Shown: positions 12,907-62,680 of the stretch, piece by piece
Layout: every line of letters begins with the position of its first letter
Numbering within the stretch: the stretch's first letter is position 1
NCBI RefSeq assembly: GCF_000189635.1
Contig: NW_002476013.1
Coordinates: 62,001-126,000 of the forward strand
Source of the DNA: Tetrahymena thermophila SB210
Lineage: Eukaryota; Ciliophora; Oligohymenophorea; Hymenostomatida; Tetrahymenidae
Direction of reading: 5' to 3'
Length of the DNA: 64,000 nucleotides
The notes under the pieces: generated by a model
What the model was told of the DNA's origin: nothing
The model's database searches: none
Seen by the model: the letters and a program-made list of their open reading frames with translations, nothing else
Program-made: the position numbers and the translations under genes

Positions 12907-14229
12907 TCAATATGATGGGAAGAAGTAACTCTCTTCAAGACTATCTATAGATATATTCATGTTATTATACATATTAAATGTAATTACGTATTCTGTATCT
13001 TTATCAAATGAAACATAATCAAATTTTGACACTACATTTTCATAGTCAGGATAAGTGCAAAACTAAAGAATATTGTCTGAAATACTGAATCTCATTTCGT
13101 ATTAGCTTCCGTTTTATACACTCTAACCAAAATCTATGCCTTTCACTACTTCTGAGCAGTCTTATGTGGGGCTCTAATTGTAAAATCTCTTAAATATATA
13201 TCCAGATGTACCAGAATACATATAATTGGTTTTGACTTAATCTTTTCTGAACAAACCAACAAAGTGATAGTTATTATTAAAACTGTTAACAGTCCAACGA
13301 AGAGTATATTTTTTATAAGGATCAATCTCAAAATCAAGATGTACTTATTATTAGTAGGATTTTGCTTGACTTTAGATGTTAATAGAACCGTTTTTGTATG
13401 ACCATTTTAACTTTTTCTAAGTTCTATAATTTTAGCTTAGTCCTTCTTCAATTTTAAGATCAGAAATATCTATGCTTCTTCCACCTATAAAAGAGGAATT
13501 TATAGTCTATCTTAAAAGTTTATTTTCTTCACTAATTGCCTTAACCTAATCTCTCAAATATTTTGCCTTTTCTGAGATTCCATTCGACTTGAAATTGTTA
13601 TCCTCAAATAAAACATATGATTTAATATTCTCAAGTTCATTTTATATGTTTTCAAATGTTGGCTCACTGATTGCTTTTGTAATACTATTGGCAATAGAAT
13701 TGTGGGTTTCTTCAGGGGTCTTATATGTCAATATCTCTTTTTTGATAACCAATTCGATTTCATCAAGCTTTTAATTATACAAGTCAATTTAGGCAAAAGC
13801 TTCTTAAAGTTTTTCAGTATTAATTCCTTATTCCCCAAAAGATGAATTGAATTTTGTTTCATTCAAAAAAGTGCCAAGCTTTATAAAGAATTCTTCAACA
13901 TCTAATTCAGGTTTTTCTTTACATTCGCTGTGTTTTTAGAAATGGCATTTACCGCAAATTAACTCAAGATAATTGTTATGACCACACTCTGCATTCACAC
14001 AAATACGATCTGCATTTCTATTTGGGCATTTTTTGCAAGCGGGAGGTTCGAATTAATCACATAAATCTTTAATGTGCTAAGTAGTATTTGCATTTTCAAT
14101 GTTAAGCATAATTTATTCTTGCTAAACCACAGCCTTGCTAGGTTTTTTTTTTGGAGCTTTCTTTACAGGCTCTTTTTCTTCCTTTTCAATAGCTTTTTTA
14201 ATGACTCCTCCAACTTTTCTCCTGCTCAT
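12907..14229 (-). CDS. TRIM-like protein: zinc-binding domain, coiled coil, SPRY/B30.2-like C-terminus
   Basis: One intron-free frame of 441 codons (440 aa), ATG 14227-14229 to TGA 12907-12909. The N-terminus is Lys-rich (KKAPKKKPSK). Residues about 45-95 hold a dense Cys/His cluster: C at the start, C-x2-C (ACKKC), C-x4-C-x-H and C-x2-C-x2-C-x-H-x2-C near its end, resembling B-box or related zinc modules. Residues about 105-250 are charged and helical, likely coiled coil. From about residue 280 the chain is beta-rich with YTLRWTVNSFNNNYHFVGLF, which looks like the core of a SPRY/B30.2 domain. This order recalls TRIM proteins, but a classical RING is not evident. A protein-interaction or ubiquitin-related role is inference. 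The SPRY assignment is my weakest point and a MATH-like fold is an alternative. Confidence 0.75.
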
Positions 14230-17819: not shown

Positions 17820-19294
17820 ACAATTCAAAGTTAAATAAATAAAAGTATATAAATATTTATTTTTACAGAATTACTCTAAAGTTTTATCAAAAAAATTATA
17901 TTTAATATTTGTAAATTTTAAAATAAAAACCAAATTTATCAATAATACATCCATTTATTTTAAACTATATTATAAAATAGCTTTTTTATTAAAAAGTATT
18001 ATCTTTTTAATTTTAGAAATTGAAAAATCTATTTCCAAATTTAATAAATAAATAAAGGAATTTTATTAGATTCTTAATAAAGTTAAAATTAAATCCTTCT
18101 AAATAAATAAAAGAGTTTGGAATATGAAATATATTATATTCTTAATAAGTATGATATAATTAATAGCTTATTAAATAATTATTAAATTAGCATATTTATT
18201 TCTTTACAAATTAAATAAAATTACACAATACTAAAAGTTTAAAATATAAAAGAAATTTTCAATAGATTTTATAAAAAAATGGATCTTAATAGGTATTCTT
18301 TGATTTAAAAGATAAATATTTATCTTAAAATAATTAAAAATTAATTCAACCAAATATTTTTTGTATATTAATAGCAAATTATGTCATATTTTCTTTAGTA
18401 TTTAAATTATCTGTATAATTTTTTTTAATTCATGTTTGTTTTAGTTAATTTAATTTTAAATAATTGCCTTTAATTTATTTTAATTAAATACCCATGAATT
18501 TTTTAAAAAAATTTCATTCTTTGTTTAAATTATTCATTCATTTGTGTGATTTTTTGCAGATTTTAATACAAAATTAAGAAGCTCATACTATTAATCTTAA
18601 AAATAGCTATTTAAAAAACTTTTATGTTAAAAATTTATTAGATTTTCAAAAAAAATAAATTTCTTTATATTGTTAATAAAATAACAAAATAATAAAATAA
18701 AATAAATAATCTATTTTGAAAAAAAAGGATTTCTTTGTTTATAAAATAATTAAAATTTAATTATTCAGCTAATTACTTAAAAATATAATCTCTTTGTATT
18801 CATTTAAATTAAATTTATTTGAATAAATAAAAAATAATAAAATAATTATCTTAATCAAATTGATCTTTAAAAAAATATGTTTTGAATCAAGTGTATTCTT
18901 CTTATGTAAACAAAATCACTAACATGACACATGTATTATTTATTATGTTTGTTTTATAGTTTGCTGATTAAAATAGTAAGCAGCTAATTTTTTTTTCTAT
19001 TTCATATAATAATGAAATTACATCATATAATAAGATTTTATACTCACGTAACATTAGGATGACACCAAAAATTTTAGTATATGGCTGATAAGAAAATAAA
19101 GAAGTTGTAAGGTAAATTTCTAAATAGATTTTTTGGTTTAATCTGAAAGACTTCTTTTGCCTTAAATGTTTCATTAACTTGACTTTCGAATCAAAAGTGA
19201 AGATTGTATATATTTGCAAACAAACAAATAAATAAATATAATCAATATATATCTTTGTATTAAAAAATAAAAAAGTAGAATAAAGTTAAAAGTA
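17820..19294. other. Spacer of the duplicated unit, upstream of the lipase
   Basis: 1.5 kb of AT-rich DNA. Its last about 340 bases are conserved with the copy-1 spacer (16870-17207) although no convincing protein frame spans both copies, so they probably hold the shared lipase promoter. Nothing else recognised. Confidence 0.5.
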
Positions 19295-20541
19295 ATGGAT
19301 TAGGCAAATTAATTACACCCTCTTTTTTCTGTTGACCGTACCACAAAGGAATACTAAGAATAAAAAATTAAGAGAATTTTAGAAGCAAAATAAGATGCTA
19401 AATGGGATTTCCCCAACCCTCGTGAAGGCACAGCTTTTCCTGAAATGAATTTTATGGATTTCAAAGTTATTTAAGATAAAAAAGAAATCAAACTAGCAAC
19501 CTTTAGATACAAACCAACTAATGGCTAAGAACCTAAAGCTCTTTTTTTGCTTTTCCATGGTATGAATAGTAGTGTTACTCATGGTTCTCATATTGCCAAA
19601 GCCTTAGCAGATGTAGGATTTTGTGTGGTTGGTTTCGATCATAGAGGTTATGGAGCTAGTGAAGGCATAAGAGGATATTTAGAAAGTTTTGAAATTCACT
19701 TGTAAGACTGTAGAGCTTTTGTCAATAAAGTAGAAGAAATGTATGGAAAATAAATTAAGAAATTTATTGGTGGTTTATCTATGGGAGGTATGTCATCCTA
19801 TAACATGTCTCTTGAGAATCCTCATAGATTTGCAGGAGTTGTTCTTTTTGCTCCAGCTCTTAAACCTGTTTAGAAGGGGTTTGCAGTCAAGTTTGTTAAA
19901 TCAATTGGTAAATAATTTTATTAAATGATTGTATAAATTTTATTTAATTAGATTTATTATTGACTCGATTAGTCTTCGATCCATTTTCTATTATAAAACA
20001 TATTTTTAGCTAATTTTAAACTCTATGATGTATTTTTGATATTTATTTGATAATTATATACTAATTAAATCTTATAAACAACTTATTTTATGCAAATAGT
20101 TGGAACTTTAGCTCCAAAGTGGTGCTTTGTTTAACAGACAGGTAAGAATGCTCACAGAAGCCTTAAATTAGCAGAATACTAGGCAAAAGATCCCTATTCA
20201 TATATTCACAAATTATCTGCTGGCAGTATAAAAACAATTTACACTGCCATGGAAAAAAGCTATGAAACCTTTGGATAATACAATGCTCCTTTCCTTGTCA
20301 TCTAAGGTGGTCTTGATAAATGTGTAGACCCAGATCTTGCTTTCGACTTAATGGAGAAATCACCTAGTAAAGACAAGCAAAGTAACATATTATTAATACA
20401 ATAGAAATGTGAGTTTTAAATTTGTATTTTTTTATATAAAAAGTTATCTATTATGAAGGTATGTGGCATGATATCTGGCATGAGCCTGAAATTTATGAAA
20501 TACTTCCTCAAGTTGTCGATTGGTGTTTAAAGAGAGTATGA
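19295..20541 (+). CDS. Monoglyceride-lipase-like alpha/beta hydrolase, copy 1
   Basis: Three exons: 19295-19907, 20100-20381 and 20444-20541, separated by GT..AG introns of 192 and 62 bases. Total 331 codons (330 aa), TGA 20539-20541. Features of the MGLL/Hydrolase_4 family: oxyanion-hole segment FHGMNSSV (His about 88), DHRGYGASEG, nucleophile elbow GGLSMGGMSS (Ser about 162), acid in GGLDKCVDPD (Asp about 277) and catalytic His in EGMWHDIWHEPE (His about 307). The length and spacing match monoacylglycerol lipases and lysophospholipases. There is no signal peptide, so it is probably cytosolic or peripherally membrane bound, hydrolysing monoacylglycerols or lysolipids (family inference). The intron positions are the same as in the paralogue at 21379. 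The second intron ends AAAAG rather than TAG; I chose it because it restores the conserved YYEGMWHD reading. Confidence 0.9.
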
Positions 20542-21378: not shown

Positions 21379-22586
21379 ATGGAATCTAGTAAAGTTATAG
21401 ACTGTAATAATGTTTAGCATACCTAAGTTGACAGAAAAAATAAATTATATTAGGAATAAAAAAGAAAAAGAGTGATAAGTGCAAAGCAAGATCCTAAATG
21501 GAACTTCCCTAACCCTCGTAAAGGAACTGCTTTTACTGAAATCAATTTTATGGATTTTAGAGTAATTTAAGATAAAAAAGAAATAAAATTGACAACATAC
21601 AGATATAAACCAACTAATGGGCAGGAACCTAAAGCTCTGTTTTTGCTATTTCATGGATTAAACAGCAGTGTTAGTCATGGGTCTCATATTGCCAAAGCTC
21701 TTGCTGATTCTGGTTTCTGTGTGGTGGGATTCGATCATAGAGGATTTGGAGGTAGTGAAGGAAAAAGAGGATATTTAGAAAATTATGAAATTCATCTATA
21801 AGATTGTAGAACCTTCATAAATAAAATAGAAGAAATGTATGGTTAATAAATAAAAAAGTTTATAGGAGGGTTATCAATGGGAGGTATGTCCAGCTATAAT
21901 ATGTCACTAGAACTTCCATTTAAATTTGCAGGTGTTGTATTGTTCGCTCCAGCAATCAAACCTTTTATCAATGGTTTCCTTGTAAAAGTAGCAAAATTTA
22001 TTGGTAATTTTAATATTTTGAATAAAAAATTAAAGATGAAAGCAAGATTTTAAGATTTTGAGTTTAAAGAAAGAAATATTTATTTTAAATATACTAAAAT
22101 ATATATAAATTTACTTTAATTAAAAGCTGCTATTACACCTGAATGGAGATTTATAAAATAGGCTGGAACAAATTGTCATAAAAGCCCTGAAATGTCTTAG
22201 TACTAATCAAAAGACCCAAACACTTATTCTAGTAAAATGTGCACTGGTACAGTAAGGACAATCTATAAGGGCATGGAAAGCAGCTTCAAGACTTTTGAAC
22301 AATATAATGCCCCTTTCTTAATTATTCAAGGTGGTTTAGATAAATTGGTAGACCCTGATGTTGGTTATGATTTGATTGAAAGGTCACCTAGTAAAGACAA
22401 AACACGTAAAATTTTAATTAAATCATAAAATTCAAATAAATTTTTCATTTTCATAAATATATTTTTATTTGTTATAAATTTTATATAGATTGGTACTATG
22501 AAAATATGTGGCATGACATATGGCACGAACCAGAAATAGTTGAGATACTTCCTAGAGTTATAAAATGGTGTGAAGAAAGAATTTGA
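21379..22586 (+). CDS. Monoglyceride-lipase-like alpha/beta hydrolase, copy 2
   Basis: Three exons: 21379-22003, 22127-22405 and 22489-22586, with introns of 123 and 83 bases at the same codon positions and phase (1) as in copy 1. Total 334 codons (333 aa). The catalytic set is complete: FHGLNSSV, DHRGFGGSEG, GGLSMGGMSS (Ser about 166), GGLDKLVDPD (Asp about 280) and ENMWHDIWHEPE (His about 310). The N-terminal about 35 residues are basic and unlike copy 1, while the catalytic core is about 70% identical by eye. Synonymous sites are well diverged, so this is an older duplication than that of the secreted pair. Same probable reaction: monoacylglycerol or lysolipid hydrolysis. Confidence 0.9.
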
Positions 22587-23408
22587 AACATTCAATTAAG
22601 GGTTTATTTGTAAAAATAAGTAAAGTCATTATGGCATTTATTTCTTTCTTTTGTATATTTATTTATTTGATTATTTTTAAATTTGCCTATTTATTTATAG
22701 TGCTTTAGGTGTTTTATATTAAATCATCTAAAATTAATTATCATGTTATGTTATTCACACAATTTATTAATTTTATATTGGTCTATCCACATCTAAAATG
22801 TGTATTTTATTCATTATTATATTTCTCCAATAATACTTAATTTAGGTTGTTCATATTTTTTCACTAGCATTCATGTTACTTAATGAATATATTATTAATA
22901 AAATTGTGTTTATCATTCATTTATTGAATATGTACAGTATTTTGTTTATCTCATTAAAATGTAAATTAATCAATTTTGAATTTTTTTAGATCTCCTAAAT
23001 GTAACAAAATTATAAATTTGTTAATATTTGATACATAGAAACAAAACAATTTTTGACCAAACTAAGATATAATATTCTATTTTTTTAAATAATGTCTTTT
23101 TAGTTCGACTTATAGACAAAGCTAAATAGGTTTTCTGATCAGTTAATTTTTTTTTTAGATGTTAATGATTAATTAAGATTACAGTTTTTAAAAATACCTC
23201 AAAAAATCACTAATTAAAATATCTTCATAGATATTTAAAAAACATTTAAAATTAGTATATATTATGTAAGTTAAAAACCTAAACTATTCATATCCTTCTC
23301 AGCTTATTATTCTTTCCAAAATGATGTTTTAAATAAATAAAATTCTATGTTTGTTAATTAACTTAAGTAATTTCGTCATTATTTTATCCCTTAATTTGCA
23401 GCTAAAGT
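22587..23408. other. AT-rich intergenic gap
   Basis: About 0.8 kb with no coding frame seen. Homopolymer A/T tracts only. Confidence 0.5.
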
Positions 23409-35283: not shown

Positions 35284-37023
35284 ATAAAATTCATATATAA
35301 GATATTATGTCTAAAATATATTCATCTTATTTTGTAAAATTAAGTAAAAAATATATATTATTTTACAAAACTTAATTCAATATTGAACTTAAATTAATCA
35401 TTATGAGTTTAAATTTTTTAGTTTTTTTTATTACAAAAGACATTCAATTTATTTAACAATAATAATTATTGAAATTACAGCTTAAATAATTATAGAAAAC
35501 TTTTTTATTAACATTAATATTAAAAATTTAATAACATAGAAAAAAATTTTAAATATTGAAAATCCTTATTAATAAATTTAAATTTAAAAACTTTTAGATT
35601 AAAAAGTACATTTTAAAATTTATCTCAACATTCTTTGCCTCATAAAGACTCTAAATTGCAAATCATTTGATTACAATTTAAGGAAAATATACCGAAATTT
35701 AAAATTATTTACATCATAAAAACAAAATTATTATTGCCTAAGTAACATTTATTGTATTTTAATATAATTATATTTTACCTAATAATAATTAAGTATAACT
35801 TTTACTTGTTAGTGTATGAATATATTTTCAATTATTGTTGATAGTGATTTATTAAAATTTTATTATTTTCTTAAAAATTATTTTGAATAAATCATATTTT
35901 TTGATTAAAGAATTTTAAAGGTTATTTTTTTAAATTAGATTTCTAAATTTCTGATATCTAATTTTAATTTATGCTTTTAATATTTTGCTTAATTTAATCT
36001 AGAAAAAAATATTATTAAATAATTCGTAACACTTACACTCTATAAATAATTTGATATAATCTATATTTTATAATTCTAATAAATCTTTAATCAAAATCCT
36101 ATAAAATCTATTTAACCTTCTTGAAAAGAGTAAATAATAAATAAATATATTAGATTTAAAGAAATTATAATAATTTTTTATGAATTATAAATAGGCTTTT
36201 CGTTTATATAAGCTTATGTCAATGCCTTTGGGATAATTTAGACATAATAGATAAATAAAATAGAAACAATTCATAATTTCTCATATCTTATTTATTTGCT
36301 TATTTGTTCTCAATCTTTTTAAGGTATTAATAAAAGAAAAATTTAATATATTTAGAAACAGATAGTTTTTTTATTAAATAGTTTAGATAAATTATTCAAT
36401 ATAAAATTATATTATATAAATCATAGGCTAATATAAAAAAGTACATTTTTTGAAAAGTTATTCAACACTAAGAAAATTCCTTTTTGAAAAGCCATTTAAT
36501 ACTGAGAAAATTAATATTTGAAGAGTAATAAAGATCTTTGTATTTTATCAGATATTTATCTAATCTTTTTTGAGAAAATAAAATTTTAGAAAGATATTTC
36601 ACAAAATATTGATTGATTTAGGCTAAAAATAAATTATTTGTCTACCGTCGATAGATATGTGTCTGTAAAAACATCTTTTTAACAAATAAGCAAAGTATTT
36701 TTATTAGCTTATGTTTTTTTAAAATTTTAAATAAATTTTTATTTTTGAAGTAGAGTTGATTTGTATGTGGAGTGCTATTTAAATTATTTTAGCTACTATT
36801 TGAAATTATATTGGCTTAAAAAGCTTTATTCTTTCATTATTTCACATGCCTGCTATACTAAATGTATCAAAAATATGATAAATGTAAAACCTAAATAACA
36901 ATTAGCCATTATTTTTATGATCAGAATTTAATAATTAATTTAAATTAAAAGTCAATAATTTTTTGGTCAGATTTTGTTAAAATAATATAAAAATGCTTGT
37001 TAATAAATAAATTAATTAATAAA
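35284..37023. other. AT-rich intergenic gap
   Basis: 1.74 kb of AT-rich DNA ahead of the giant zinc-finger gene. A short near-repeat is visible at 36448-36510 (TTTTTGAAAAG..ATT..AACACTAAGAAAATT versus TTTTTGAAAAG..ATTTAATACTGAGAAAATT, about 36 bases apart). No coding frame or RNA gene seen. Confidence 0.45.
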
Positions 37024-40000
37024 ATGAATATTTACCAATAATAAATGAATTATTCTCACTATAAATTAAAGTAAGATTCAATTAATTCCTGATTTAATTC
37101 TAAAGCTTTTGTTGGCTTTTAGAATCTTTAAAATTAGATCACAAGCTGAATCTTTCTAAATTAATAAAAAATAACTAAAAACTTAAATTGGATAGAATGA
37201 ATTTTCAGATAAATCTAAGCTGCTCCAATCACCCTTAAAAGAAGGTTGAATTTTTTGCTTATAATTAAACATCAAATAAATATGAATTAGTATGCTCACG
37301 CTGCATTAGTAAGCTACCAAAGGACTTTGTCACTATTGATAATGAAGAAGTCTTCTCTGAAAGTTAGAAATACATCACTAATTGGCCTCCCTTAAAAAAT
37401 GAGTAATTGTAGCAACAAATACAAAAAAAACTAGAGAATTAGGATAATCAAGAAACTAAAACTGATAATCCAGGTAAATGTGATAACTAATAGTTATTTA
37501 CTAAAATGAGTGAACAATTTTCAACTTTTCTGGTAGATTTCGAAGAAAATTTGAAAAAATAACCTTAAGGTAGTTAATTAATCTAATAAAAGTATTAAGA
37601 AATATCTTAATCGAAGTAGCTTCTCTCTTTCATTAAGCAGGAGGTTAGTAAAAAGGAGAAATTTTCAGGTGTATCTTAGGATTTTAAAAGTTTTTTATAA
37701 TAACGCTGCTAGGATAACTCAACTGATAAGTAATTGGAATAGGCTTTAATTAAATAAGATAAAAATGCTTAAGAAGAACAAATCGTTAAACTGTAATAAG
37801 CACTCAAAATTTTTTATAATAATTACAATAATTTACCATAGAAGTTTTCAAAAATCTAAAGAGCTTTAGATTCTTAAAAAAAATAATAAACTAAGTTAGA
37901 GGAAGAAAATGAAATGCTTTCATTATTTAATGAGAAAAAAAAACCTGAAGACGAATAATGGTTTTGCAACATGAATCATTTCTATTAAAAGTGCTTAGGA
38001 AAAAAGTAAAGATTTACTAAAGAACATTTTAAGCATTTGTTAGAATTTACTTTAGGAAAAAGTCAATATTGTACTAAATGTTCAAGAGTTACTAAAAGCT
38101 ACTATTGGGCTTGCTAATAATGCAAATATTATTTGTGCTTAGACTGTTCTTAAAAAAAAGATTAATTTAATATATTTTATGACAAACTTTTAAACTCAAG
38201 ACTTTAAAAAAATATTCGTGAAGATAAAAATGAATTTGGATATTTTTTCGTTTTTGCATTTAAAAGTGATGGTAATAGATTTGCTTATTGTGATAAATGT
38301 TCAAGATAATTAGTAGATAAGAAAAAATATGCTTGGTATTCAAAGTCTCAACAATTTTTGTAATGTCTTGTCTGTTTTTAAGGTGCTGCTGACATTTTTA
38401 TTGACAAAAATTACTATGCTAAACCAGATATCCCATCAACATTTTTCAATCCAGGTTACATGCAAATTCTCTAATAAAATTAACAATATGTTATTGAATT
38501 TTTTGTTAACCCTGCAAATAAATCTTTAAAAAAAGATAACTAATTACCGTACATACATTTTTAAGTAGAAACTTAACAAAATTCTAAATAATAAGATTCA
38601 AATAAATAAAATCAGAATTAGCCACATAAAGAGTATTAGATTGTTAAATAATCAGAATTTTAAGGAAGCTTGCAAAAATAAATAATTCCAATACAAGACA
38701 ACGCTATTAATTAATCTACTAATAATATAAATTGGTCTAATAGTAATAGTGATAATAACAATTCTAATAATTTAAATAATTTGAATGTGAATCAGAAATT
38801 AGACATACCAAATAGTTAAATAAATCAGGTTAAATAAATAAAATCTACAAAATAATATGACCAACAAGATTAAATTATTATTATTAATTTTTCTGAATTT
38901 TTCAAGAAAAATCTCAATGTTTAGAAAAAGTTCCCAAAAATTGATTTTAAACATGATTTGAAATTTACTGAAAATACTGGTAAAAATTGCAAATTATGTA
39001 ATAGATGTATCAATTAATATTGTTGGTCTTGCGATTTATGCTAATACTATGTATGTATAGAGTGCTTATCAATAGAGACATTTACTTAATTTTACTAAAA
39101 ACTAATTAATTCTGAATGCGATGAAAAAATTGGATTACACAATCATTCTAAAATGCAGTTTAAAAAATTTACTAATATGTATTGTGGATAATGTAGAAAA
39201 GATTCTAAAACTCTACTAGGATGGGAATGTTCTGACCCAGTAAATAAATGTAATTTTTGTGTTTGCTTAGATTGCAGCTCAAAATTTGGTGAAATTATGG
39301 TAGATTCAATAATCTATAGTTCAACCCCTGATATTCCTGTTTAAACAAGTTAAAATTAATTTTAGAATTAACAAGATGATGAAAACTTTATGGTTGTTAA
39401 TTTCTAAGAGTTTTTCAAGAAAAATCTAAACATTCAGAAAAAATTCCCAAAAATAGATTTCAAACATGATTTGACATTTGCTGAAAATGCTGGTAAATAC
39501 TGCAAATTATGTAATAGATCTATCAATTAATTTTGTTGGTCTTGCGATTCATGCAATTACAATGTATGTTTAGAGTGTATTTCAATAGAGACATTTACTT
39601 AGTATTACTAAAAGCTAATTAATTCTGAATGTGATGAAAAAATTGGATCACACTAACATTCAAAAATGTAGTTTAAATAATTTACTAAAATGGAATGCAG
39701 TTCATGCAGAAAAGATTCTAAAACTCTACTAGGATGGGATTGTTCTGACCCAGTAAATAAATGCAGATATACTGTTTGCATAGATTGCAGCTCTAAATTT
39801 GGTGAAATTATGGTAGATACAAAAGTCTATAATTCAATCCATGATAGTCCTGTTTAAAGCAGTTAAAATAAGAATATTAACGAAAATTAATTTTAGAATT
39901 AATAAGATGATGAAGACTTTATGATTGTTAATTTCTAAGATTTTTTTAAGAAAAATCTAAACATTCAGAAAAAATTCCCAAAAATAGATTTTAAACATGA

Positions 40001-43000
40001 TTTGAAATTTGCTGAAAATGCTGGTAAATACTGCAAATTATGTAGTAGATCTATCATTTAATATTGTTGGTCTTGTGATTCATGCAAATACTATGTATGT
40101 ATAGAGTGTATTTCAATAGAGACATTTACTTAATACTACTAAAAGCTAATTAATTCTGAATGTGATGAAAAAATTGGATCACACTAACATTCAAAAATGT
40201 AGTTTAAAAAATTTACTAAAATGGAATGCGATTCATGTAGAAAAGATTCTAAAACTTTATTAGGATGGAAATGTTCTGACCCAGTAAATAAATGCAGATA
40301 TACTGTTTGCATAGATTGCAGCTCTAAATTTGGTGAAGTTATGGTAGATACAAAAGTCTATAATTCAATCCCTGATACTCCTATTTAGAGCAGTTAAAAT
40401 ATGAATATTAACAAAGGTAATAACCAGTCAGAATATTTATATTAGAATTAATAGGATGATGAAAACTTTATGATTGTTAATTTCTAAGAGTTTTTCAAGA
40501 AAAATCTAAGCATTCACAAAAAATTCCCAAAAATAGATTTCAAACATGATTTGACATTTGCTGAAAATGCTGGTAAATACTGCAAATTATGTAGTAGATC
40601 TATCATTTAATATTGTTGGTCTTGTGATTCATGCAAATACTATGTATGTATAGAGTGTATTTCAATAGAGACATTTACTTAATACTACTAAAAGCTAATC
40701 AATTCTGAGTGTGATGAAAAAATTGGATCACACTAACATTCAAAAATGTAGTTTAAAAAATTTACTAAAATGGAATGCGATTCATGTAGAAAAGATTCTA
40801 AAACTTTATTAGGATGGTAATGTTCTGACCCAGTAAATAAATGCAGATATACTGTTTGCATAGATTGCAGCTCTAAATTTGGTGAAGTTATGGTAGATAC
40901 AAAAGTCTATAATTCAATCCATGATACTCCTGTATAAAGCAGTTAAAATATGAATATTAAAGAACATTAATTTTAGAATTAATAAGATGATGAAGGCTTT
41001 ATGATTGTTAATTTCTAAGAGTTTTTCAAAAAAAATCTAAACATTCAGAAAAAATTCCCAAAAATAGATTTCAAACATGATTTGACATTTGCTGAAAATG
41101 CTGGTAAATACTGCAAATTATGTAGTAGATCTATCATTTAATATTGTTGGTCTTGTGATTCATGCAAATACTATGTATGTATAGAGTGTATTTCAATAGA
41201 GACATTTACTTAATACTACTATAAGCTAATTAATTCTGAATGTGATGAAAAAATTGGATCACACTAACATTCAAAAATGTAGTTTAAATAATTTACTAAA
41301 ATGGAATGCGATTCATGTAGAAAAGATTCTAAAACTTTATTAGGATGGTAATGTTCTGACCCAGTAAATAAATGCAGATATACTGTTTGCATAGATTGCA
41401 GCTCTAAATTTGGTGAAGTTATGGTAGATACAAAAGTCTATAATTCAATGCCTGATACTCCTGTTTAGAGCAGTTAAAATAAGAATATTAACGAAAATTA
41501 ATTTTAGAATTAATAAGATGATGAAAACTTTATGATTGTTAATTTCTAAGATTTTTTTAGGAAAAATCTAAACATTCAGAAAAAATTCCCAAAAATAGAT
41601 TTCAAACATGATTTGACATTTTCTGAAAATGCTGGTAAATACTGCAAATTATGTAATAGATCTATCAATTAATTTTGTTGGTCTTGCGATTCATGCAATT
41701 ACTATGTATGTATTGAGTGTGTTTCAATTGAACCATTTAATTTATATTATTAAAAACTAATTAATTCTGAATGTGATGAAAAAATTAAATCACACTAACA
41801 TTCAAAAATGTAGTTTAAAAAATTTACTAAAATGGAATGCGATTCATGTAGAAAAGATTCTAAAACTCTACTAGGATGGGAATGTTCTGACCCAGTAAAT
41901 AAATGCAGGTATACTGTTTGCATAGATTGCAGCTCTAAATTTGGTGAAGTTATGGTAGATACAAAAGTCTATAATTCAATGCCTGATACTCCTGTTTAAA
42001 GCAGTTAAAATATGAATATTAACGAACATTAATTTTAGAATTAATAAGATGATGAAGACTTTATGATTGTTAATTTCTAAGAGTTTTTCAAGAAAAATCT
42101 AAACATTCACAAAAAATTCCCAAAAATACATTTTAAACATAATCTGACATTTGTTGAAAATGCTGGTAAATATTGCAAATTATGCAATAGAAGTATCAAA
42201 CACTATTGTTGGTCTTGCGATTCATGCAAATACTATGTATGTATTGAGTGCATTTCAATTGAATCATTTAATTTATATTATTAAAAACTAATTAATTCTG
42301 AATGTGATGAAAAAATTGGATCACACAGGCATTCGAAAATGTAGTTTAAAAAATTTACTAAAATGGATTGCGATTCATGTAGAAAAGATTCTAAAACTTT
42401 ATTAGGATGGGAATGTTCTGACCCAGTAAATAAATGCGGATATACTGTTTGTATTGACTGTAGCTCGAACTTTGGTGATTTAATGGTAGATATTAATATT
42501 TATAAATCAATCTCTGATTTTATTCCTTAAATTGAAGATAATGAAGAAGACGAATTAGTATTAGATTTCTAATTTTTATTTAAAAGTCTAGTAAATATAA
42601 AACACAGATTCTATAGCTTACACTATACACATGATTTATGCCTAATACAAGGTTAAGGAAAAAATTGCAATTTATGTTGGAAATCAACTTTGAATGTCTG
42701 TTGGAATTGTTAAGAATGTTAACTTTTTGTGTGTCTTGATTGTATACCTTCTACAAAACTTTTTAGAGGCCTTTATGATAAACTTCTAAATTCAGAAGCA
42801 GAAGAAGATCTTAGAAATTTTAGACATAAAAATTTTATATTTACTAAAAATATTAAAAAAGAATCTTGTACTAACTGTCAAGATAAGCGTAAAGCGGAAT
42901 ATGGATGGATTTGTAGAGAATAAGGTTGTGGTTAGTTTGTTTGTTTAAACTGCTCTTCTAATTTTTAAGAAATAAATGTTAATAATTCAATAGGAAAATA

Positions 43001-44606
43001 AGAATCAAATTTAATTACAAATATCTTCAAAATTTTAAAAAACAAACAAAATTTGACAGATTCTACTATCTAGGAAATAAATCAGTTTAATCGAGACGAA
43101 GAGGATGAAAAAATCGTTCTTTACAGCTTTGATTCAATATTTAAAAATAATATTAATCTAAAAAATAAATCAAAATACCACAATGATCATGAACTTGAAC
43201 TGGTAATATCTAATGAAGGCTACTGCAAAAGGTGTGTAACAAATACAAAAGGGTTATATGTATGGAATTGTGAGTAATGTAAAATAAAATATTGTATAAA
43301 TTGCACAACTTTCGAGTCTGATTTAAGATATTATTATGATAAATTTATAAACTCAGAATATGATTAAGTAATTAAAAAACATAGACATATGAAATTTGTT
43401 TTCAGGAATAATCAAAAAGGAAAATCAATTTAGTGTGACCTTTGTAATTCAAGACCAAGTGATTAATTCTACTATTGGTCATGTGCAATTTGTGATGATA
43501 GATTTGAAATATGCTTAAGGTGCTCTCTAACCTTTGGTGAAGTAAAAATAGATTAAAAAATTTATTAATCAAGCCCTGATCCTCCATAGAGACTAGCTGT
43601 TCAATAAAAATAATAAGAAGAGTAAAAAGAAGAAGAAAATATTAAACTAAATATAAACTAGTATTTCTAAAATTGTATCAATTCAAAGCAACAATTCGAT
43701 TCTCACAATGCTCATGAATTAGTTTTCTCAGATATATAAAAAGGTACTTGTAGATAATGTGATAGATCTCTCAAAAGCTACAGTTGGAGATGTGAGTAAT
43801 GCAACTACTCATTGTGTTTAGACTGTTCTTCAACTGTATAATCATTTAAGTACTTTTACAATAAAATTGTTAAAGCTTAGTATGAATAGTAAGCACATAA
43901 TCATAAGCATACTTCATTTTCTTTTGTTAGCTTTGCAGATGGAAAGAGTGGTAAGAGATGTGATATTTGTTCTAGGTCATTGTATTATTATGGATGGAAA
44001 TGTGGCTAGTGCTCATTTGATTTGTGCCTTAATTGTTCTGGAAAATTTGAAACAGTAAAACTAGATTTAGAAGTCTATAAATCTCAACCAAGTATTTCAT
44101 AAAATCAAATTAAAGAGTCAGAAGTAACAGTAATCAATTTTAAATAGTTCTTCTAAAACTGCTTGAATGTTAGGTAGATATTTGATTCCCATAAAGATCA
44201 TGAATTAACGTTCACAAATTACTAGAAGGGATGTTGCAGAAAATGTGATAGATAATTAAAGACCTATAGCTGGAGATGTGAGCCTTGCAACTATTCACTA
44301 TGTCTTGACTGTACCTCTACATTGAAATACTTTTAATTCTTCTACAATAAGCTTGTAAAATCTTCATACTAACAAAAAATAGATAAACACAATCACTAAT
44401 AAATTGATTTTATTTAATATCCCGACGGTAAAAGTAAAAGAATATGTGACGTTTGTTCTAAATCAATTTTCTATTACGGATGGAAGTGTCCATAATGCGC
44501 ATATGATGTTTGTCTAAATTGCTCTGGCTAATACGAGAATTTAAATATAAATATGGAAGTATATAATTCTTAACCTAATGTTCCTTAAGTTTTCACAAGT
44601 TAGTGA
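37024..44606 (+). CDS. Giant tandem DC1-like zinc-finger protein with B-box-like N-terminus
   Basis: A single frame with no TGA runs from about 37106 to TGA 44604-44606 (2,500 codons). I start it at ATG 37024-37026 with a 35-base intron (37071-37105); ATG 37197-37199 is the alternative. Near residue 60 a B-box-like module reads LSCSNHP ... LVCSRCIS. After a Gln-rich coiled region come about 12 units of roughly 177 residues. Each has two Cys/His fingers: one with H then C-x2-C-x7-C-W-x-C-x2-C-x4-C-x2-C, and one with H-S-K-M then C-x2-C-x9-W-x-C-x6-C-x4-C-x2-C. They resemble DC1/C1-like fingers. Between units lies an acidic Gln linker (QNQQDDEDFMIVNF). Units 2-8 are nearly identical; units 1 and 9-12 are diverged. 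Such fingers usually mediate protein or lipid binding; the actual role is unknown. Confidence 0.88.
38890..42560 (+). repeat. Seven near-identical 514-549 bp tandem units inside the giant gene
   Basis: Units begin near 38890, 39405, 39935, 40485, 41015, 41545 and 42085, judged by the phrase AAATCTAAACATTCAGAAAA and its variants. Adjacent copies differ at only a few positions over hundreds of bases, silent sites included, whereas the flanking units (1, 9-12) keep only the Cys/His skeleton. Length variation comes from the linker (for example an added NKGNNQSEYLY-like segment before unit 5), always in whole codons. Confidence 0.85.
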
Positions 44607-46005: not shown

Positions 46006-46659
46006 ATGAAAAATCATAAGATGAGAAGTAAATATGAAAGCCATAATTTATTTGACGAAGGATAAGAAAAAACTGCCCCAACATCATAGCTAAAAAGCTT
46101 AGACTGGAAAGTTTCTTCAGAATACTATTTAAATTCAATAAAGTAGTAATAAGACCATTGTTAAGGAAACTATTAATAATTCTTTTAGTCATAAATTTCT
46201 TAAAAAAAGAAATTTACATTTAAATCCCATCAACATGAACTGGCCTTTACTTGCAAATTAAATTAAATTTTCTAATGCAGTGTATGTTAAAGTCCTGTGC
46301 TCAGATATTTTTGGAAATGTGATTAATGCAAATACTATATATGTTTAAACTGTTCTGCTGATGTCGATACATTTAAAGAATTTTATGAATCCTTGACGAA
46401 ACCTCAGTTCTGTTTTATTGATTATTATAGAGAATAAGAGAGTAAGTTATTATTCATAAAGCATTTAGTGAAGCCCAATGACGTATGTTATATATGTCGC
46501 TATCCTATTAAGCTTTATTCGTGGAGTGATTTAAAATTGGGCAAACATGCTTGTTTAAATTGTGCAAATTCATTTAATTCTGTATTGCCTGTAGATCCAC
46601 TTACATATAAATAGAAATTCGAAAAACCAAAATAAAATTAAATAGAATTAAATTTATGA
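46006..46659 (+). CDS. Single-unit DC1-like zinc-finger protein, relative of the giant gene
   Basis: One frame of 218 codons (217 aa) from ATG 46006-46008 (a second in-frame ATG is at 46021) to TGA 46657-46659. After about 75 hydrophilic, Gln-rich residues it carries the same H-x-H-E-L start and C-x2-C ... W-x-C-x2-C-x4-C-x2-C finger as the giant protein (FWKCDQCKYYICLNCS), then a second, degenerate finger (VCYICRYPIKLYSW ... CLNCANSF) that has lost the middle Cys pair. It is about one unit long. It may be a remnant of the array or an independent small member. Zinc binding by the first finger is likely; function unknown. Confidence 0.8.
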
Positions 46660-56694: not shown

Positions 56695-58668
56695 ATGACA
56701 GAAAAGGCTATCATAATAAACAAATAGGTTAATTTTAAGTAAAAAAAGTATAAGTTTGCTTATTGCTTAAAATAGGGGCATTTATAAAGTATTAAAAAGT
56801 ATGTTTGCCTAGAGGAACAGTGCTCAAAAATTAAATCAATATGTGAATATTGCTTTAAAAAGGACAACTAACACAATGCTCATTAGATTATTCCTTAGGA
56901 ATTATTGCTTAATATTGCCCAACAAAAATTAATAAGTTCAAAGATCCCTTAGCAGTTAGAAATGATAGATTATAAAATAGAGAAACTATAAGCGAATTAA
57001 AAATCCACACTTTTGGTTGATGCACTTAAAGAGTTGAAAGAATTACTTCATAAAGTGATGAAATTCGATTTGATCTAGGAATATAGCGTATTTCAAACTA
57101 ATTCCATATTGGAGCTTGCTTATAAAATGATTGCTTTCAATAAAAATTTTGTTATGATAAAAGAACCCCTATCCCTTAATATCATGGAATTTGAAATTCA
57201 GGTTGAGAGTATTTCAAGTATTTTTGACATGATAGCAGTTAAGACTAAAAGGTTAAATGAAGTTGAAGACGCTTAGAGTTAGCTTTTAAAGTTTTAAAAT
57301 CCTTAAAGTATTAAAAAAAAGAATCAAACAGATCCTTATGAAGTAACTCACTACAGCTAATATGATACTCCAAGAAAGAGTTATACATAAGTTAGGCACA
57401 GTGAGAGCATAATTAGCGTAGAATCTAATAATAAAAGTGATAATCAAACATAGGTGATAAGAACCAGGTCTATGGATATGGCTTTAGATTTAAAACTAAC
57501 AAAGTAGAAGAAGAAGACAAAAGACACACAAATATTAAATTCTCCACAGAGTATTTCGTATGCTTAGAAGGAAAAAGGTGATAGAGAAAAATAATAAATA
57601 GAGTCAGAACAGAGTGAAGATATTCCTTCTTTGAGTTGTAATCATAAAAAAAGCTCATTATAAGAATTAATTAATGATTATAACAATTTTGAGGTAGTTG
57701 TAGATCCTAGTAAGATGTTAGTATAAAGAGCTCATGAAGGGATCATCTATAACTTTTTAGATCTAGGAGAGGGTTCAGGAAATTCTCTTTCCTAAGTGGT
57801 CACTCTAGGCGAAGATGGATTGATGAAATTTTGGAATCCAGTTGATCTAAAATGCTTGCATACAATTAATTTTAAAATAAATGACCTTCATTTTTCTTAG
57901 ATCAGAGATATTTAATACTTAAAAAGAATTAAGTGTATTGCAGTTGTTTGTAAAAATTACATAGGAATTATTAATATAAAAAATTATAAAGTAATCAAAA
58001 AAATATATGTAGAATCCAATAACTTAGATTCTTGTGATTAATTAGGGCAACTATTCTTAGTCAACCCTTCACAATAATGTATAATGATATATGACATGTT
58101 CACTTTTGACTAAATTGGTTAACTCTAGGGTATATAAGAAGACATAACATCTCTCGCTTATGCTCAAAAAGGAGGAAAGTACTATTACTTTACAGGAACT
58201 AAAAATGGAAATTTGAGCAAGTTTGATTTAAGTAAGCGCGAGCACCTTTTCACCAAGAAAGTAAATAGGATTACAATATTTTATTTATCTACAGTCAGAT
58301 ATTAAGGTGGAGACGAATGTATAGTAACATACAGCTGTAACGAATATGTTAATGCTTCTTATGTTAAGTTTGTAGATGTTGAAACACTAGATATAATAGT
58401 AAATTTAAATTTTACTGCTATAGATTCAGCAATATGCTATAATAATGAAATATATTTAATGTAATCTAATTAAAACATCGTACAAATCTTAGTTGAATAT
58501 AACAAATATACTATTAAAAGAATGACAAAAATACCCTCATCATTTTCTAGAGGGTCTGATGTCTTTAATGAAGGTTTGAGGTGGGTTAAAAGCTAAAGAA
58601 TAGCGCTTTTAAGTTAGTTTAGTCGTACTTAACATTATTCTAATTTAGTAGCTTTTCCCATTATTTGA
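56695..58668 (+). CDS. Zinc-finger / WD40-like repeat protein
   Basis: Single exon, 658 codons (657 aa), ATG 56695-56697 to TGA 58666-58668. Residues about 23-70 contain a Cys/His cluster (YCLKQGH ... VCLEEQCSKIKSICEYCFKK ... HNAH), B-box-like. Residues about 75-230 look helical or coiled. A Gln/Ser/Lys-rich linker follows. From about residue 335 (VQRAHEGIIYNFLDLGEGSG, then VVTLGEDGLMKFWNPVDLKC) the chain resembles a WD40 beta-propeller. The later blades are weak and lack obvious WD dipeptides (TGTKNGNLSKFDL, FNEGLRWVKSQRIALL). This zinc-finger plus propeller layout is seen in many ciliate proteins of unknown function. It probably works as a protein-interaction scaffold (inference). Confidence 0.8.
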
Positions 58669-61240: not shown

Positions 61241-62680
61241 TCAAAATGAGCGCTTGCATAAAGGGCATAGTTTTTTTACTTTAATCCAACTATCTATGCA
61301 AGAAGTATGAAATTTGTGAGCACAAGGAAGCATTCCAAGTGTTTCTTTTTCAACAAATGTGACAAAGCATATGCAGCAATCTTCGGCTTAAGATGATTAA
61401 GGATCTTTTACATATTTGACATCAGCATAATATTCTGATCTTGATACTTTGTTTTAGTAAGATTTTTTAATTTTCCTTTAGTTCTAAACTATAAGCTTTT
61501 CTATTTCTTTTTATTATTCAAATGTCTGCTAATTAAATTACTTTCTCATATAATCTCTGCTTCCAAAGAAAATTTAATGTGTTCTATTTACTTATAAACC
61601 ATCTTCTGCAAAGGCCCTTTGGTAAAGATCTAATAATTTAAATTCTTCTTTTCGAAGGCAATCTATAGTGTGATCATTTATAATATATCTTGGAAATTAT
61701 CTATTACAAAACTCACATATTACATTAGCCATTTTACATTTTTCATTATGAGATTCCATCTAACTTTATCTTTAATACTCACCACATAGATCACAATATT
61801 TAACACCTTCTACTTCCTTCAATAAATTCTAAAAATCAGAATTGGAAGATATTTAATTAGGTTTTTTCTCATTTGGGCTTACATAATTCGCAATGAATTA
61901 TTATTTATTTGACTGTAATTGCTATTTATTGTTTAACTATTATTATTATTACTTTTATTATTCTATAATCTATTTTTATGATCTTCTTTATAGCTATAGA
62001 GCTTGATTTTCATTTTTAATCTGCTTTTCTTTATGTATTTTATCCAGTATTTATTAGTTATTAGGATATTACTTATTAAATATATTATTTATAAATTCTT
62101 CATTAACTTCAACTAAATCAAAATCATTTTTGTTCTATTCTTTTTGCTTATTATACATCTCGAGCTCATACTATTACTTTTTTAAAAAATTCTTTTCCTT
62201 TTCTGTTAGGTTTACTTCATTCCTTCTAAGTTAATTTTCTTTTGATCTTTTTTACATTTCAAAATCGCAAATTTATAAATTATCTCTCTACTAGTTTATA
62301 GGAATTTGGTTTAATTCTTAATGTAATATTTATGCTAATAAATGATCATTTTCAGTTTAATTTTAATAATCATTTTACTTTTGACTATTGTATATAATAG
62401 ATTCTTTTTGTGTTTAATTTGAAGTTCTCTCTGTTTGATAAAAATCATTATTTTAAGTTGTTTTAATTTGTTTCAGTTCAATAGATTCTTTTTTTTAGAA
62501 ATGCTAATTTGATTTAAGATGATCTTCTTTATCTTAATTTATATCTTGGATTATTTTAAAATTCTCATTTGAGTTTCTTTTCTCAGTAATGTCCTTATCT
62601 AACTATTTATCTTATTCATCTAATTCATTAAGCTACTGCTCAACATTCTTATTCTTTCTTTAGACAAAAAAATGTAGCAT
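61241..62680 (-). CDS. RING-H2 finger protein with additional zinc finger (putative E3 ubiquitin ligase)
   Basis: Single exon, 480 codons (479 aa), ATG 62678-62680 to TGA 61241-61243. The last about 45 residues are a canonical RING-H2: C-x2-C-x14-C-x-H-x2-H-x2-C-x10-C-x2-C (GMLPCAHKFHTSCIDSWIKV, then LCPLCKRSF). Residues about 293-340 hold a second Cys/His cluster (YCDLCGEYQRQ ... H ... C ... ICEFCNRQF ... DHTIDC), like a TRAF-type or UBZ-like finger. The N-terminal 280 residues are highly charged Glu/Lys/Gln/Asn, likely coiled coil or disordered. RING-H2 proteins recruit E2 enzymes and transfer ubiquitin (family knowledge). No membrane segment, so probably cytosolic or nuclear. Substrate unknown. 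Confidence 0.88.

Follow-up and report, generated by a model that had tools for sequence, protein, structure and literature searches.

A giant Tetrahymena gene with twelve pairs of DC1-like zinc fingers behind a front module found in a large gene family

The DC1 finger of plants follows the ligand pattern H-x2-H, CxxC, CxxC, HxxC, which is visible in the plant structure 1v5n. TRIM or RBCC proteins are built from a RING, a B-box, a coiled coil for dimerisation, and a variable C-terminal domain. In tomato, 19 of 21 DC1 proteins carry 1 to 5 domains, and two carry none, according to the excerpted text of PMC10707348. Tetrahymena thermophila itself has Zfr1p, a protein of 448 aa with an N-terminal B-box of 40 aa and a hydrophobic C-terminus, whose B-box and distinct C-terminal domain are both required for localisation to the conjugation junction, as described in the consulted portion of PMC3519685. 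Among the papers listed in searches of the open-licence literature, none dealt with DC1 fingers or with the CxxH/CxxC-WPPL family described below in Tetrahymena, and the comparative genomics paper PMC6564038 mentions neither DC1 nor B-box in its main text. Here we describe a gene encoding 24 DC1-like fingers in a stretch of 64,000 nucleotides from T. thermophila SB210 (contig NW_002476013.1, positions 62,001 to 126,000; hereafter the window, in whose numbering coordinates are given unless another contig is named).

The gene, its reading frame, and its parts

The giant gene lies on the plus strand, where translation with NCBI table 6 gives a frame of 2,537 codons from the first ATG at 36993 to a TGA at 44606, within a stop-to-stop span that opens at 36921. 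The first-pass annotation had proposed a giant zinc-finger gene starting at 37024; the observation holds, with 24 fingers in one frame, but that start falls in the wrong frame, and the translation of 37024-44603 carries 28 stops. The likely start is the ATG at 37197, because a paralogue on another contig (C221) aligns Met to Met with it, and 37197-44606, with TAA and TAG read as Gln, is a single open frame predicted to encode about 2,469 aa. The first 68 codons of the 36993 frame are AT-rich, with a GC content of 0.186 against 0.262 in the N-terminal module. An array without introns, as claimed earlier, fits the open frame, in which no intron is needed; six intron-like pairs (one pattern, GTA[AT]G...TTTAG, 35-300 bases) all lie within finger units, and their removal would delete fingers. 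The parts of the gene, and of a one-unit gene next to it, are as follows.

37197..37304, plus strand: likely start, placed by the C221 paralogue, and half of a B-box-like zinc site (C-x2-H ... C-x2-C)
37305..38006, plus strand: WPPL motif, then a presumed helical stretch, both common to an N-terminal family
38016..38402, plus strand: u0, the most N-terminal finger pair, with a degenerate B finger
38403..38912, plus strand: Q/N-rich linker without Cys (35% Q+N), whose end overlaps the u1 query window
38853..42551, plus strand: tandem array u1-u7, mostly with a 531-bp period
38853-39365, 39366-39878, 39897-40409, and 40446-40958, plus strand: u1, u2, u3, and u4
40977-41489, 41508-42020, and 42039-42551, plus strand: u5, u6, and u7
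42531..43043, plus strand: u8, a divergent pair
43089..43601, plus strand: u9, a divergent pair
43614..44126, plus strand: u10, the top-scoring DC1 pair, with HxxH-xL kept
44100..44603, plus strand: u11, the final pair
44604-44606, plus strand: TGA stop
46006..46659, plus strand: neighbour gene, 217 aa from the chosen Met in a frame open from 45760; one unit, second finger degenerate

The 24 fingers form twelve units, each of an A and a B finger, and the A fingers start at residues 360, 666, 837, 1014, 1197, 1374, 1551, 1728, 1892, 2078, 2253, and 2415 in the 2,537-aa numbering. A strict pattern of three CxxC pairs is found in 15 fingers (12 A and 3 B), whereas 1,000 composition-preserving shuffles yielded 0.018 matches on average and never more than 1. 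The nine fingers that depart from it are the B fingers of u0-u8; in u1-u8 the middle Cys pair is wider, and in u0 it is gone. The second His, that of the HxL motif, is present in 12/12 A fingers and the first in 6/12, with Asp in its place in u1-u6, and the last pair is CxxC, not HxxC, in all twelve. A and B fingers are themselves mutually related (hhalign probability 97.3, one comparison). The array is missing from the list produced by Tandem Repeats Finder, its unit being longer than the period limit of 500.

The GC content of the linkers is 0.20-0.26, the low end of which lies between the values of the finger units (0.25-0.30) and of the upstream flank. These linkers had been called acidic and rich in Gln, a description that suits the NQQDDE blocks in the unit linkers but not the protein as a whole, which is slightly basic (net +36). 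A membrane-like segment was not found in the giant, where the best 19-residue hydropathy is 1.09, and a secreted or membrane protein was set aside in view of the lack of a hydrophobic segment. A role as a zinc store was also considered and set aside by judgement.

Among the other genes in the window, one at 56695-58668 (plus strand) has a Cys/His-rich front that is B-box-like by eye but unmatched by the Pfam B-box at E<=1; WD40-like repeats (sub-cut-off in Pfam) come after it. A RING-H2 gene lies at 61241-62680 (minus strand; zf-RING_2, 42.1 bits), and two neighbouring alpha/beta hydrolase (Hydrolase_4) genes at 19166-19963 and 21379-23031 (plus strand) are apparently a tandem pair.

Relatives of the giant and history of the array

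Searches of the genome (101 Mb, 445 contigs) with u11, u3, the C221 unit, and the neighbour as queries, in which only the best candidates were scored, placed the finger-pair unit at three loci: the giant, the neighbour, and the C221 paralogue, which combines one unit with the same front in the same order of parts. A further weak match to the finger pair lies on C134 (E 0.09). Outside this genome, 4 pattern matches came from viral contigs scanned with u3 and 13 from bacterial and archaeal genomes, none of them confirmed, each scan reaching close relatives only; at the level of fold, the viral search returned 302 matches at E<=10, none of which among the best 50 reached E<=0.001. On scans of this reach, viral, bacterial, and archaeal relatives were not retained as candidates.

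The front module consists of a half-site (CxxH...CxxC), WPPL, and a presumed helical stretch, and its four ligands recur in every one of 10 sequences picked by hand for alignment, the giant among them. This CxxH/CxxC-WPPL family is found at about 104 sites of the genome; many of these form tandem arrays, often closely spaced on a single strand (23 on C111 and 17 on C24; other members lie on C180, C73, C227, C5, C54, and further contigs; L044-L073). Compared as a single sequence, the module of the giant matches that of the C221 paralogue with E 5.2e-28 and one on C111 with E 1.5e-4; it also matches a family HMM built from other members (E 1e-8, with heavy composition bias), by which C221 goes unreported at E<=10. 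The description of this front as B-box-like stands for the motif, CxxH plus CxxC, but not for the profile: zf-B_box (PF00643, cut-off 24.1 bits) has no match in the giant and is passed by no sequence scanned, with sub-cut-off matches in the C221 paralogue (13.2 bits) and in 1/10 N-terminal modules (E 0.0072). Family members whose ends were read carry another C-terminal domain instead of finger pairs, and a member on C250 has other Cys-rich stretches. In the single gene of C111 that was scanned, the family's C-terminal domain exceeds no Pfam cut-off. Within the window, a frame at 12907-14229 (minus strand) matches an HMM of that domain (E 1.9e-5), likewise with no Pfam match over cut-off.

It was first proposed that the giant represents an undescribed system. 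This is overstated: because its front recurs in about 104 places and a one-unit gene has the same order of parts, the giant is a lineage-specific kind of gene in expanded form and not an isolated invention.

Pairwise DNA identity among u1-u7 is 79.5-97.7% (93.6-97.7% among u2-u6), and dS is 0.038-0.052 among u3-u5, 0.092-0.107 between u2 and these three, 0.152-0.183 between u6 and them, and 0.335-0.399 when u1 or u7 is compared with them (0.29-0.51 for all pairs with u1 or u7). Because dS rises outward from u3-u5 to u1 and u7, the middle copies are the youngest, matching the prediction for unequal crossing-over. Beyond u1-u7, a tree of 14 units is mostly unresolved, with 1/11 inner branches well supported (u10+u11) and long branches for C221, the neighbour, u0, u8, and u9; therefore, no order of origin is claimed for the divergent units. 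Across u1-u7, dN/dS (over 148 codons, in a model that leaves out gene conversion) is 0.20-0.46 and below 0.5 in 21/21 pairs, which argues for an array that is translated and useful and whose copies, whatever their exact number, would not be assembly duplicates.

Such a history would also suit an ordinary internal repeat expansion, in which a C221-like protein of one unit was lengthened by unequal crossing-over, its copy number stayed near neutral, and the giant does the job of its short paralogue. The one-unit relatives (C221 and the neighbour) and the young middle copies are in line with it, and so is the range of dN/dS, which lies close to and within the Ka/Ks values of young Tetrahymena genes: according to the part of PMC6564038 that was consulted, these are often tandem duplicates under relaxed but purifying selection, with a median Ka/Ks of 0.25-0.30 and about 0.4 for LRR genes. 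We nevertheless consider this explanation less likely than the one favored below, since every one of the 21 pairs is below 0.5 and 23/24 fingers retain all three Cys pairs.

Resemblance of the fingers to DC1, ZZ, and C1 domains

The first-pass annotation called the fingers DC1-like, which is supported by the C1_2 profile and by the rank of 1v5n in the fold search. Over the whole giant, Pfam C1_2 (PF03107) scores 84.8 bits (E 4.9e-24, 19 stretches; curated cut-off 26), and 5/12 single units exceed the cut-off (u2 29.0, u6 30.8, u7 27.2, u10 34.7, and u11 33.0 bits). Scores are below it in u1, u3, u4, u5, and u9 (24.2 bits in u9), and u0 and u8, scanned singly, have no C1_2 match at E<=0.1. The neighbour gene, too, stays under the C1_2 cut-off, with 22.0 bits. 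The top profile match in the PDB is 1v5n, a plant DC1 (E 1.5e-4). Five models of u11, built on 13 units, have pLDDT values from 64.3 to 86.8, the best with a pTM of 0.82 and two fingers joined by a helix, which suggests that a finger pair can fold as a single domain. On the other hand, a two-unit model of u4-u5, made from a 7-row alignment after a 10-row one had stretched to 554 columns and been discarded, is poor (best pLDDT 50.8, pTM 0.28), so that it speaks neither for a rigid pair nor for beads on a string. In Foldseek, 241 matches were obtained at E<=10 and none at E<=0.001, with 1v5n on top (probability 0.99, E 0.04, TMt 0.50). Among the best 50 of the 241, ranks 2-6 are unrelated zinc-ribbon-type parts of transcription or repair complexes (probability 0.10-0.25), whereas the C1 domains of Raf and GEF-H1 and the ZZ domain of p62 stand lower with probabilities of 0.5-0.9. 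"DC1-type" is the best name for these fingers, with a last ligand pair, CxxC instead of HxxC, that leans towards ZZ.

An alternative is that the finger acts like a ZZ or N-degron reader in a receptor of the ubiquitin pathway, feeding substrates to an E3 with an affinity raised by the array. The ZZ_ADA2 profile (PF25299) reaches 25.7 bits in u10, the PDB profile search includes weak matches to ZZZ3 (E 0.019) and the E3 MIB1 (E 0.093), the p62 ZZ domain is a weak fold match (probability 0.57), and the consulted part of PMC4506424 presents the B-box and ZZ folds as relatives. Relatives of the finger also occur in two adjacent genes on C129 (L043, 4419-5309 and 5670-6713, minus strand), which combine a front that is RING-like by eye with a terminal C1_2-like finger and are possibly ligase relatives of the finger. 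In the genome search, these single fingers scored 26.8 and 22.5 bits, the first gene giving 23.5, below cut-off, when rescanned as a protein; this gene also has a sub-cut-off Sina zinc-finger match, and further sub-cut-off C1_2-like fingers were found on C158, C277, and C184. However, ZZ_ADA2 stays below its cut-off of 27.5 in 12/12 units and in the neighbour, and the giant has no match to a RING or other ligase domain at E<=10, making such a receptor improbable.

A membrane lipid sensor, whose tandem C1-type fingers would bind diacylglycerol or phosphoinositides, is very unlikely: the C1 domains in the fold list would fit it, but the canonical diacylglycerol-binding profile C1_1 (PF00130) is below its cut-off of 26.5 in 12/12 units (best 22.5 bits, u10), and diacylglycerol binding by plant DC1 is itself termed unclear in the excerpted text of PMC13033517. 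Least credible of all is a mis-assembled or decayed, untranslated array, because, even though u2-u6 are alike enough for an assembly to miscount copies, every copy is distinct, the linkers vary, no stop interrupts the frame, and dN/dS is below 0.5 in all 21 pairs.

A tentative reading and its comparison with known systems

We favor reading the giant as a cytosolic, TRIM-like multivalent adaptor that may, in the cytosol or cortex, gather or retain a partner of repetitive make-up, with a probability of roughly 0.45. According to this reading, the giant would have grown by unequal crossing-over from a C221-like ancestor; its N-terminal stretch, presumed helical by eye, would self-associate, and each finger pair would act as one bead binding a peptide or protein. 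The seven similar beads of u1-u7, on linkers containing Q, N, and D, could then use avidity to engage a ligand present in many copies, and u0 and u8-u11 might bind something else or cap the array. The putative ligand is more likely a protein or peptide than diacylglycerol; a protein ligand is reasonable because the fold list holds the C1 domain of GEF-H1, a microtubule C1 domain by its entry title, although this does not identify the ligand. A broader and decidedly speculative extension is that ciliates possess a set of TRIM-like proteins, encoded at about a hundred often tandem loci, that combine the same N-terminal assembly module with interchangeable recognition ends. The giant would then be the multivalent form, its 12 beads adapted to a single repetitive ligand inside the cell, for instance a microtubule, a coat, or the surface of a pathogen. 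From a practical point of view, the presence of the finger pair and of a one-unit paralogue in the same genome makes the effect of valency directly testable, and the locus draws attention to a large family, multiplied in tandem, whose members have a common front and, where read, differing ends.

Of the described systems, Zfr1p, with its reported N-terminal B-box and a distinct C-terminal domain, resembles the giant in layout, a likeness by description in the consulted portion of PMC3519685 and, as regards kinship, a lead only. Plant DC1 proteins (e.g. 1v5n, At1g60420) share with the giant the finger profile, the HxL...CxxC...CxxC...CxxC spacing, and the repetition of fingers. They differ in number, and the array is indeed long for DC1, as first noted (24 fingers against 1 to 5 domains in 19/21 tomato proteins in the excerpts of PMC10707348); in ligands, the A fingers of the giant ending in CxxC instead of HxxC and those of u1-u6 having Asp for the first His; and in arrangement, the fingers of the giant being paired, with a helix between the two in the u11 model. 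The front module of the giant is not mentioned in the portions of the plant DC1 texts compared. TRIM or RBCC proteins are like the giant in the order of their parts, a small zinc site, a presumed helical stretch, and a variable end, whereas the giant has no RING match, falls short of the B-box profile, and ends in a finger array. The CxxH/CxxC-WPPL family has the same N-terminal module and, in the C221 paralogue, also one finger-pair unit, whereas the members whose ends were read, a minority of the 104, join that module to another C-terminal domain.
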